Origin: Oceanomicrobium pacificus
Lineage (GTDB): Bacteria; Pseudomonadota; Alphaproteobacteria; Rhodobacterales; Rhodobacteraceae
Assembly: GCF_009833495.1 (NCBI RefSeq)
Contig: NZ_WUWG01000001.1
Span: forward strand, 992,001-1,056,000
Direction: 5' to 3'
Length of the DNA stretch: 64,000 nucleotides
In this document: piece by piece, positions 1,380 through 33,941 of the stretch
How the letters are laid out: each line of letters opens with the position of its first letter
How positions within the stretch are numbered: the stretch's first letter is position 1
The notes under the pieces: generated by a model
What the model saw: only the letters and a program-made list of their open reading frames with translations
Database searches by the model: none
Told to the model about the DNA's origin: nothing
Made by a program: the position numbers and the translations under genes

Positions 1380-2126
1380 ATGACGGAAACGGGACAGAGC
1401 ATAGGCGGCACCAACCCGACCGCGGCCATGCTGGTGATCGGGGACGAGATCCTGTCGGGCCGCACGCGGGACGCGAACATGCACCATCTGGCGGGCCAGT
1501 TGACCGCAGCCGGCATCAGGCTGGCAGAGGTGCGGGTCGTCGCGGACGAGGAACCGGCGATCGTCGCGGCGGTGACGGCGCTGCGCGGGTCCTACGACTA
1601 TGTGTTCACCAGCGGCGGGATTGGCCCGACGCATGACGATATCACTGCGGATGCCATTGCGGCGGCCTTCGGTGTGGGCATCGATGTGCGCGAGGATGCG
1701 CGCGCGATCCTGGCCACCAACTATGCCGATCCGGAGCGCGACCTGAACCCGGCCCGGCTGCGCATGGCGCGCATTCCCGACGGGGCGACGCTGATCGACA
1801 ATCCGGTGTCGAAGGCGCCGGGGTTCCGGATCGGCAATGTGCATGTGATGGCCGGGGTGCCCAAGGTCTTCAACGCGATGCTCGATGCGGTGTTGCCGAC
1901 ATTGCGCCACGGGCAGGCGGTCGCGTCGCGTTCTGTCGACATCGCCCTGCCGGAGGGCGAACTGGCCGGCCCATTGGCGGAGGTGGCCGCGCGCCATCCG
2001 GCCCTGTCGATCGGGTCCTATCCTTATATCCGTGAGGGCAGCTACGGCGCAGTTGTCGTTGTGCGCGGCCTGCCAGAAGCCGCGGTGGAGGCCGCGGCGG
2101 CCGATGTTGCCGCGCTTGCCCCCTGA
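1380..2126 (+). CDS. CinA N-terminal/MoaB-like molybdopterin-binding domain protein
   Basis: A 248-residue protein of the MoCF-binding family annotated as competence/damage-inducible protein A. The start MLVIGDEILSGRTRDAN and the later FTSGGIGPTHDDITADA are the hallmark glycine-rich motifs that bind molybdopterin or nucleotide in MogA/MoaB/CinA. It lacks the C-terminal nicotinamide-deamidase (PncC) half of full CinA, so it is the stand-alone short form. The ATG at 1380 was preferred over in-frame starts at 1290 and 1335 because of the AAAGGGG Shine-Dalgarno just before it. The true substrate is unknown. Confidence 0.85.
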   Translation: MTETGQSIGGTNPTAAMLVIGDEILSGRTRDANMHHLAGQLTAAGIRLAEVRVVADEEPAIVAAVTALRGSYDYVFTSGGIGPTHDDITADAIAAAFGVGIDVREDARAILATNYADPERDLNPARLRMARIPDGATLIDNPVSKAPGFRIGNVHVMAGVPKVFNAMLDAVLPTLRHGQAVASRSVDIALPEGELAGPLAEVAARHPALSIGSYPYIREGSYGAVVVVRGLPEAAVEAAAADVAALAP

Positions 2127-2171
2127 CCCGCCACCGGCTAGGACACCAAGACACTGATCCGTCAGCGAAAG

Positions 2172-2257
2172 GCCCGCTTGGTGAAATTGGTAGACACAAG
2201 GGACTTAAAATCCCTCGACCTTCGGTCATGCCGGTTCGAGTCCGGCAGCGGGCACCA
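2172..2257 (+). tRNA. tRNA-Leu (anticodon UAA)
   Basis: The acceptor stem GCCCGCT (2172-2178) pairs with AGCGGGC (2247-2253), followed by discriminator A and an encoded CCA (2255-2257). The anticodon stem AGGGA/TCCCT closes the loop CTTAAAA, with anticodon TAA at 2206-2208. The T-loop GGTTCGAGTCC and a long variable arm make this an 86-nt class II tRNA, as expected for leucine. An open reading frame runs straight through the tRNA into the outer-membrane protein gene behind it. Confidence 0.97.
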
Positions 2258-2261
2258 ATTC

Positions 2262-3365
2262 CTGACGCGCCTGCTGGGCGCCGCGCTTCTGGCGCTTGGC
2301 ATTTCGGCGCCGGCGGCGCAGGCCAATGACGCGATCTACAATGCCACCCTGCCAACGGTGCGCAGTCTCGACGAAAGCCGGTACGGCTTCCGGCAGGGCG
2401 ACGTGATCGTCGCGCCGATCCCGATCAACAACCCGACCATCGGCACCGGTCTGGCCGGGGTGGTGGGGTATCTCTACCAACTCGACGCGGACTCGCCGAA
2501 ATCCTATCTCGGCATTGGCGGGTTCCGGACTAACAATGGCAGTCAGGGGTACGGGTTCGGCACCCAGACGGGGTTCGGAGACGGGCGCTGGCGGCTCGGC
2601 CTCCTGCTCGGGAAGGCCGAGGTCAACTATGATTTCTTCGGTATCGGGCGCAGTGACCTGCGGCTGCCGATCGCGCAGGATGCGCTCTTTGCCCAGGTGA
2701 CGGCGGCCTACGGATTTACCCCCGATATCCTTCTTGGCCTGAAGGCCCGCTATATTGACAGCGAGATCGACCTCGATCTCGGCAGCGGCCTGCCGCCCGA
2801 TCTGCGCCCGCGGGTGGAGAGCCTGCTGGCCGGGCCGACGGTGGAGCTTGATTTCCGCGACGATGATTTCTACCCGACCGACGGGTTCCATGCCGATCTG
2901 GAGCTGCTGCAAAGCGCGCCGCTCGAAAGCGACACGCTCGATTTCACCGTCGCCTCGGCGCGGATGGAAAACTACCTGCCATTCGGGCCGGACATGATGG
3001 TCGCCACACGCCTTGCGGCCTGCGGCGTCGACGGTGACGCGCCCTTCTACGAGCTTTGCACCATCGGCGGAACCGACGGGTTCCGCGGCTATCCGGTCGG
3101 CCAGTTCCGCGACTATGCGCTTCTGTCCGCGCAGGCCGAGTTCCGCAGCCGCCTGACCGAGCGGATCGGGTTCACAGCCTTTGTCGGCGCGGGCCAGACC
3201 GCGGCAGATTTTGGCAGTTTCGGGTCGCGTGATCCGGCGCTGGCGGGCGGCGCGGGTTTCCGCTTCCGCCTGTCCAAGGATTTCGGCCTCGATTTCTCCA
3301 TCGACGCGGCGGCCAATGTGGATGGCGACCTGACCACCTATGTCTATGTCGGGCAGCGGTTCTGA
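2262..3365 (+). CDS. Omp85/BamA-TamA-type outer-membrane beta-barrel, no POTRA
   Basis: About 367 residues. The N-terminus FLTRLLGAALLALGISAPA, followed by AQA and then ND, reads as a Sec signal peptide. The rest alternates polar and hydrophobic residues and ends in GQRF, a C-terminal Phe barrel signature. GGTDGFRGYPVGQFRDY resembles the conserved Omp85 G-x-RGY motif (loop 6). No POTRA repeats precede the barrel. The start is doubtful: between the tRNA CCA (2257) and the signal peptide there is no ATG, GTG or TTG, and 2262 is a CTG. The next in-frame GTG would delete the signal peptide, and the earlier TTG/GTG codons (2178, 2181, 2190) lie inside the tRNA. Function is not predictable; a passive barrel or lipase-like surface protein is possible. 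Confidence 0.75.
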   Translation: MTRLLGAALLALGISAPAAQANDAIYNATLPTVRSLDESRYGFRQGDVIVAPIPINNPTIGTGLAGVVGYLYQLDADSPKSYLGIGGFRTNNGSQGYGFGTQTGFGDGRWRLGLLLGKAEVNYDFFGIGRSDLRLPIAQDALFAQVTAAYGFTPDILLGLKARYIDSEIDLDLGSGLPPDLRPRVESLLAGPTVELDFRDDDFYPTDGFHADLELLQSAPLESDTLDFTVASARMENYLPFGPDMMVATRLAACGVDGDAPFYELCTIGGTDGFRGYPVGQFRDYALLSAQAEFRSRLTERIGFTAFVGAGQTAADFGSFGSRDPALAGGAGFRFRLSKDFGLDFSIDAAANVDGDLTTYVYVGQRF

Positions 3366-3380
3366 CGCCGCACAGGCAGG

Positions 3381-4382
3381 TCAGCCGGCCATCCGGCGGA
3401 TTTCATCCAGAAGCGCCCTGGGGACCTGAAGCCCGTTGCGGTCGGCATCCGTGCGTCCGTCCTGACGCCGCCGTCCGGGCAGGCGCGCGCCGTCCTGAGC
3501 GTCGATTTCTGCAAAGAGCGCGGTAATCCGGTCGAGCGCCTCGGGGCGCGATGCGCCGGGGTCTATCGCGATAAGGAACTGGCCGACGGCGGGCGCGGGA
3601 CCTTCCGCATCGAAGAAGGACGCGGCCTGATAACTGAAATGCGGACCGGCAAGTGCGCCTGCAAAAATCTCCACCATCAGCGCCAGCGCCGCGCCCTTGG
3701 CGCCGCCCGCGGGCAGCATCGCCCCGTCAAGCGCGGCCTTGGCATCCGTCGTGGGCCGGCCGTCCCGGTCCACCGCCCAGCCTTCTGGGATAGGCTTGCC
3801 AAGCTTCGCCGCCGCCATGATCTTTCCGCGTGCCACTTTCGAGAGCGACAGGTCGATCACCAGCGGCGCGCCGTTGTGGCGCGGGGCGGCAAAGGCGATC
3901 GGATTGGTCCCGAAGAGCGGCTCGCTGCCGCCCCAGGGCGGCATGGAGGCCGGCGCATTGGCCATCATCAGTCCGATCAGCCCGGCTTCGGCAAGCCGTT
4001 CAACCGGCTGGCCGAGCGCGCCGCAATGGTGCGAATTGACGATGGCCGCACAGGCTATGCCAAGCTCGCGCGCGGCAGACACAAGCGGATCATGCGCCGC
4101 GTCGAGCGCCGGATAGGCAAAACCGAGGCCGGCATCGACGCAGATCGTGCCGGGCCGGGGGCGCGTTACGGCGGGCGTGGCCTGCCCGCGCACCTTGCCC
4201 GCCCGGGCCTGCGCCGCATAGGCCGCCACACGGGCAAACCCGTGGCCTGACAGGCCCTCGGCCTCGGCCTGAACGAGCGCCTGCGCCACGCGGGCGGCAT
4301 TGGCGGGGCTTACATCATGGGCTACCAGCGTGCGGGCGATCAGCGCGCGGCCCTCGTCGGGAAAGATGGTCTCGGTGTCCAT
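3381..4382 (-). CDS. comC: (R)-sulfolactate dehydrogenase, ComC-type (LDH2/MDH2 family)
   Basis: A 333-residue member of the malate/L-lactate dehydrogenase-2 family, which is NAD(P)-dependent and unrelated to Rossmann LDH. Family features are SGHGFARV, the VNSHHCGALG catalytic His region, and GTNPIAFAAPR, with a late GAKGAALALMVEI. Known: ComC interconverts sulfopyruvate and (R)-sulfolactate, and in the two-dehydrogenase sulfolactate racemisation it partners SlcC. The call rests on sequence style plus position directly downstream (79 bp) of suyAB and near slcC. The ATG at 4382 is chosen over an upstream in-frame start (4433) because the family normally begins a few residues before the first helix. 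An ordinary malate/ureidoglycolate-type dehydrogenase is the alternative. Confidence 0.8.
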   Translation of the reverse strand: MDTETIFPDEGRALIARTLVAHDVSPANAARVAQALVQAEAEGLSGHGFARVAAYAAQARAGKVRGQATPAVTRPRPGTICVDAGLGFAYPALDAAHDPLVSAARELGIACAAIVNSHHCGALGQPVERLAEAGLIGLMMANAPASMPPWGGSEPLFGTNPIAFAAPRHNGAPLVIDLSLSKVARGKIMAAAKLGKPIPEGWAVDRDGRPTTDAKAALDGAMLPAGGAKGAALALMVEIFAGALAGPHFSYQAASFFDAEGPAPAVGQFLIAIDPGASRPEALDRITALFAEIDAQDGARLPGRRRQDGRTDADRNGLQVPRALLDEIRRMAG

Positions 4383-4461
4383 GCGTCTGCATCCGCCTTT
4401 CTGGTGATGCGCCCCGTCTTCTTCGGGGCGCATCCGCGTCGTAGCGGACCGGTCGAAATGG

Positions 4462-33865: not shown

Positions 33866-33941
33866 TGGTGCCGCTGAGAGGACTCGAACCTCCGACCCCA
33901 TCATTACGAATGACGTGCTCTACCAGCTGAGCTACAGCGGC
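33866..33941 (-). tRNA. tRNA-Thr (anticodon CGU)
   Basis: On the minus strand the acceptor GCCGCTG pairs with CAGCGGC, followed by discriminator A and an encoded CCA. D-arm GTAGCTCAGCTGGTAGAGC, anticodon stem-loop CGTCA-TTCGTAA-TGATG with anticodon CGT, and T-arm GGAGGTTCGAGTCCTC. 76 nt with CCA, class I. It marks the border between the accessory locus and the hem/tsaD core region; no integrase is nearby. Confidence 0.96.

Follow-up and report, generated by a model that had tools for sequence, protein, structure and literature searches.

In Oceanomicrobium pacificus, the gene of an outer-membrane beta-barrel protein lies directly 3' of a tRNA-Leu(UAA) gene, on the same strand, and from the end of the tRNA up to codon 33 its reading frame holds no standard start codon. 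The best explanation, in which we place moderate confidence, is that the two genes form a tRNA-mRNA co-transcript, that this transcript is cut after the encoded CCA, and that the resulting near-leaderless mRNA is translated weakly from a CUG. Each of these ingredients is known from related bacteria, and their combination is a variant.

The junction between the tRNA-Leu(UAA) gene and the barrel gene

The features of the locus are listed in Table 1 by their positions in the window, i.e. the whole 64-kb stretch of DNA that was analysed. An earlier note on this DNA had described a frame abutting the 3' end of the tRNA-Leu without a standard start codon, a signal peptide starting 5 nt past the CCA, and in-frame TTG and GTG codons that, upstream, are confined to the tRNA. 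ARAGORN and our own reading of the frame agree with it on these points. The junction, CCAATTCCTGACG in the single assembly (10 contigs), reads CACCA (ending at 2257), ATTC, CTG (2262-2264), ACG CGC CTG CTG GGC, which puts the CTG at +5, and no ATG, GTG or TTG is present in frame between the tRNA end and GTG 2358.

Table 1. Features of the tRNA-Leu(UAA)/barrel gene locus (a slash marks a cleavage site)
Feature	Position	Strand	Basis or remark
CinA-like molybdopterin-binding protein (MoCF_biosynth), upstream gene	1380..2126	+	Pfam PF00994, 6e-31
GAAAGG, Shine-Dalgarno-like, may be chance	2167..2172	+	5 nt 5' of TTG 2178, 8 nt 5' of GTG 2181
tRNA-Leu(UAA) with encoded CCA (2255-2257)	2172..2257	+	ARAGORN, tRNA-Leu(taa)
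In-frame TTG 2178, GTG 2181 and TTG 2187 inside the tRNA	2178..2189	+	Ordinary tRNA sequence
CA/AUU, putative RNase E-type cleavage directly 3' of the mature CCA	2256..2260	+	4 of 5 positions of the consensus RN/WUU, U at +2 (PMC5222698)
AUUC, 4-nt leader that a cut 3' of CCA would leave	2258..2261	+	Sequence
CTG, proposed start codon	2262..2264	+	First codon with a complete signal peptide, n-region Arg3; no standard start
Signal peptide (M/L)TRLLGAALLALGISAPAAQA, 21 residues, cleavage before ND	2262..2324	+	AxA motif aligned with relatives
Outer-membrane beta-barrel of the Omp85 superfamily, lacking POTRA domains, 367 codons and stop	2262..3365	+	PF01103, AlphaFold, Foldseek
GTG, next in-frame standard start downstream	2358..2360	+	Within the mature protein
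Malate/L-lactate dehydrogenase (Ldh_2), converging neighbour	3381..4433	-	PF02615, 1.8e-100

The frame is open from CTG 2262 to its stop (3363-3365) and continues upstream into the tRNA; on the 5' side of the tRNA a stop codon closes it, with no intervening start codon. With the in-tRNA codons judged unusable (see below), no standard start is left in frame 5' of the functional N-terminus, as befits a gene starting with CTG. No Shine-Dalgarno sequence precedes CTG 2262, and a consensus scan, which for promoters covered the sigma-70 type, revealed neither a terminator-like nor a promoter-like site on this strand from the tRNA to the barrel gene. The first 40 nt of the gene fold at -16.6 kcal/mol, against a mean of -11.3 kcal/mol, and are more structured than most of it.

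A standard start could be provided by initiation within the unprocessed tRNA, at GTG 2181 or TTG 2178, which would place an extension of 27-28 residues ahead of the signal peptide. Upstream of the junction standard in-frame starts are found only there, and we keep this reading as a minor rival because GAAAGG, suitably spaced, gives a plausible ribosome-binding site. However, on comparison with 33 other tRNA-Leu(UAA) genes, the in-tRNA codons and the open frame are by-products of the tRNA sequence and no evidence of initiation there, since they are common in that set: TTG occurs at tRNA position 7 in 12 and GTG at position 10 in 22 of the 33 genes, and the frame used by the barrel gene is open across 16. 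Initiation in the tRNA would presumably also be blocked by its folding and processing, and the extension would give an n-region of unusual length and mixed charge, so that we consider it quite improbable.

Frames beginning at the 3' end of this tRNA were observed elsewhere. At the cinA-tRNA-Leu(UAA) locus of a genome of the same class (L044:1586-2134), a lipoprotein-like frame starts either at an ATG sharing the A of CCA or at a second ATG, which lies 12 nt further downstream and is preceded by GGAGG. At another locus (L037:1588-2115), a frame of 175 codons with a hydrophobic tail at its end is opened by an ATG immediately 3' of the CCA of tRNA-Leu(UAA). Once the tRNA is processed, this frame would have no leader at all, unless its true start is a later ATG, which is possible. 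Genes beginning right after tRNA-Leu(UAA) are not unique, which speaks for the CTG-start reading, and what is special at the barrel gene is the lack of a standard start.

The barrel protein and its signal peptide

Translation from CTG 2262 would yield a complete 21-residue signal peptide, MTRLLGAALLALGISAPAAQA followed by ND, which has the form M-T-R, a hydrophobic stretch and APAAQA/ND. The protein matches the Pfam Omp85 family (PF01103) at 5.8e-9, with 36.3 bits against a gathering score of 24, and scores 61 bits with NCBIfam NF047779, far below the cut-off of 200. Its AlphaFold model comprises 16 strands at a mean pLDDT of 86.4, and the top Foldseek matches of this model are TamA and BamA. 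The N-terminal POTRA domains of BamA/TamA-type Omp85 proteins are absent, the barrel beginning at residue 42 of the predicted model. GC content by codon position (0.68/0.48/0.82) resembles that of the genes nearby, a pattern already present in the first 25 codons; together with the Pfam match and the predicted barrel, it marks the frame as truly coding. In the alignment with its relatives, the protein keeps 39 of the 40 residues conserved at 95% and 75 of the 85 conserved at 80%, which is within the relatives' range. Because the former are kept, the barrel gene is, as far as its sequence tells, intact and constrained, not decayed.

Three options for the start had been put forward in the earlier note. 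CTG 2262 is the best supported of them, by the complete signal peptide and by AQA/ND falling into the AxA column of the relatives, whereas the in-tRNA start is weakened by the generic nature of the tRNA-Leu codons and open frame; the third, a sequence error, is considered below. We regard as very improbable that another non-standard codon (ACG 2265, CTG 2271 or CTG 2274) is used, or that a protein without signal peptide is made from GTG 2358. ACG 2265 would likewise yield a plausible signal peptide, MRLLGAALLALG, but start codons are less often ACG than CTG, and from CTG 2271 or CTG 2274 the Arg of the n-region would be lost. A protein starting at GTG 2358, envisaged in the earlier note, is unlikely, as this codon lies inside the mature protein and an outer-membrane barrel would lose its signal peptide, preventing export.

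Relatives of the barrel gene and origin of the junction

Relatives were sought in a family-wide sample of 395 genomes, each from a different genus. Matches to the barrel protein, some of them weak, were obtained in 42 of these genera, the best being 41-45% identical, and the 29 relatives examined are 33-45% identical to it. A standard start lies within 25 codons 5' of the signal-peptide core in 28 of the 29 (ATG in 23, GTG in 2, TTG in 3), and in the remaining one (L025) an ATG is found further upstream. The signal-peptide cleavage sites of the relatives fall into one alignment column, together with AQA/ND of the barrel protein, and eight of 28 relatives have a Met-Thr N-terminus, with the same second residue as CTG-ACG would yield. 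None of the 29 is located at tRNA-Leu(UAA), and this absence of the tRNA-gene junction counts against the CTG-start reading.

The earlier note had looked to related genomes for an ATG conserved at the junction. Standard starts do precede the signal peptide in the relatives, but even the closest are too distant, and lie elsewhere in their genomes, to show the base at 2262. A search for closer ones in the genera of the best matches and in the genus of the closest CinA relative found none, and a scan of genome contigs together with plasmid searches returned distant Omp85 proteins only. One locus considered as a shared tRNA-Leu arrangement (L026:1132-1405) was rejected: there, on the same strand, a tRNA-Leu(CAA) precedes the barrel relative by about 190 nt, but a terminator-like hairpin separates the two and the relative has its own ATG. 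Two relatives are possibly broken, one (L017, G390) having a frame with one internal TAA and the other (L034, G179) matching in two separate pieces, which suggests occasional loss of the barrel gene in the family.

DNA matches of the CinA-like gene were to Methylobacterium, Sinorhizobium, Shinella and Sphingopyxis, in keeping with an alphaproteobacterial source. The CinA-like gene adjoins tRNA-Leu(UAA), without the barrel gene, in several other genomes of the same class (L038, L041, L042, L044, L049, L068, L078, L083 and L092). Because this linkage occurs without the barrel gene, and because no relative is found at tRNA-Leu(UAA), the tRNA-barrel junction is probably derived in the O. pacificus lineage. 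The tRNA-Leu(UAA) sequence is single-copy in the genome, and no repeat of the tRNA end (att repeat) was found in the window or the genome; a tRNA-targeted integrated element was rejected, the tRNA 3' end not being duplicated. The window contains a second tRNA gene, tRNA-Thr(CGT), at 33866-33941 on the minus strand.

The start may have been lost recently, either by mutation of the start codon or by a rearrangement that joined the 3' end of the tRNA to the gene, which thereby lost its promoter, its ribosome-binding site and one or more initial codons. The gene would then be a silent or nearly silent, young and undecayed pseudogene, which we regard as possible, though doubtful. The probably derived junction speaks for this loss, as do the occurrence in 42 of the 395 genera, from which frequent gain and loss are apparent, and the lack of a Shine-Dalgarno sequence before CTG 2262 and of a promoter-like site. 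On the other hand, the frame is intact over 367 codons with the conserved residues kept, a breakpoint placed at random would seldom hit the very beginning of a complete signal peptide, and the tRNA end shows no duplication that would point to integration.

A base or assembly error would mean that the true genome has an ATG at 2262 or 2265, or an extra segment between tRNA and gene. The sequence comes from one assembly, and a single substitution would restore a standard start. However, the tRNA being single-copy makes repeat-driven misjoining less likely, and CTG accounts for 0.7% of the mapped starts in Caulobacter crescentus (PMC4117421). The per-base error rates of assemblies lie far below this share, so that an error is a priori rarer than an alphaproteobacterial CTG start and, in our opinion, improbable. 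A frameshift or indel error was rejected, since from the tRNA to the cleavage site of the signal peptide none of the frames contains an ATG.

Proposed expression of the barrel gene

In the explanation that we prefer, translation from CUG 2262, the barrel gene would be the second cistron of the tRNA-Leu(UAA) transcript, with the polymerase reading through the tRNA into the gene seen to adjoin it. RNase E cleaves near tRNA 3' ends, and the precursor would be cut at or just 3' of the encoded CCA. The cut would release an mRNA with the 4-nt leader AUUC, and the leaderless mRNA foreseen in the earlier note can in this sense reasonably be inferred. Translation would start weakly at CUG 2262, decoded as fMet, and the preprotein, carrying a standard Sec signal peptide of 21 residues, would mature into a POTRA-less 16-strand Omp85-type barrel. 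Little of it would be made, and the amount would depend on the synthesis and processing of the tRNA.

Low output is expected because CUG is a poor start codon, leaderless starts prefer AUG and the local RNA is structured. The output of CUG is 0.86% of that of AUG, and CUG makes up 0.024% of bacterial initiation codons (PMC11497404). The leaderless starts of S. meliloti are all AUG (PMC3616915), in E. coli leaderless starts at codons other than AUG are inefficient, a trend that Caulobacter shows in similar form (PMC9031893), and a candidate CUG of Caulobacter dnaA is unused in vivo (PMC8443254). As low output is to be expected, the strongest rival remains that of a young pseudogene. Besides its CTG starts, Caulobacter has 9.6% of CDSs (375 mRNAs) leaderless, with a translation efficiency close to that of leadered ones (PMC4117421); a CTG start on a near-leaderless mRNA would therefore be unusual rather than new.

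More tentatively, the 5' end of the mRNA might be set solely by tRNA excision, followed by near-leaderless translation from CUG, such that the output of an envelope protein depends on the maturation of tRNA-Leu. This would be a bacterial form of tRNA punctuation, and we consider it speculative.

Discussion

Bacterial tRNA-mRNA co-transcripts exist, an example from E. coli being tufB, which follows tRNA genes. As in such co-transcripts, the barrel mRNA would lie directly 3' of a tRNA on the same strand and be freed by tRNA processing; but known cases have a spacer with a Shine-Dalgarno sequence and a standard start, whereas the barrel gene has 4 nt and a CTG, and its co-transcription is presumed. 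As in mitochondrial tRNA punctuation, excision of the flanking tRNA would set the 5' end of a near-leaderless mRNA, although here a single gene of a bacterial chromosome is concerned, 3' of a CCA-encoding tRNA and with a non-AUG start. The leaderless and CTG-start genes of Caulobacter crescentus, from the same class, resemble it by a short or missing leader and a CTG start; their starts were mapped experimentally and an origin from tRNA is not described in the part of the study cited (PMC4117421), whereas the start of the barrel gene is deduced from sequence. The protein, with its 16 predicted strands and PF01103 match, resembles the Omp85 barrels TamA and BamA but differs from them by the absence of POTRA domains and by its score with NF047779.

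Gene finders would either overlook the start of the barrel gene or carry the protein erroneously on into the tRNA. If the gene is translated, it would offer a natural test of how non-AUG, near-leaderless initiation works in alphaproteobacteria, and would exemplify a functional bacterial mRNA made by tRNA processing.
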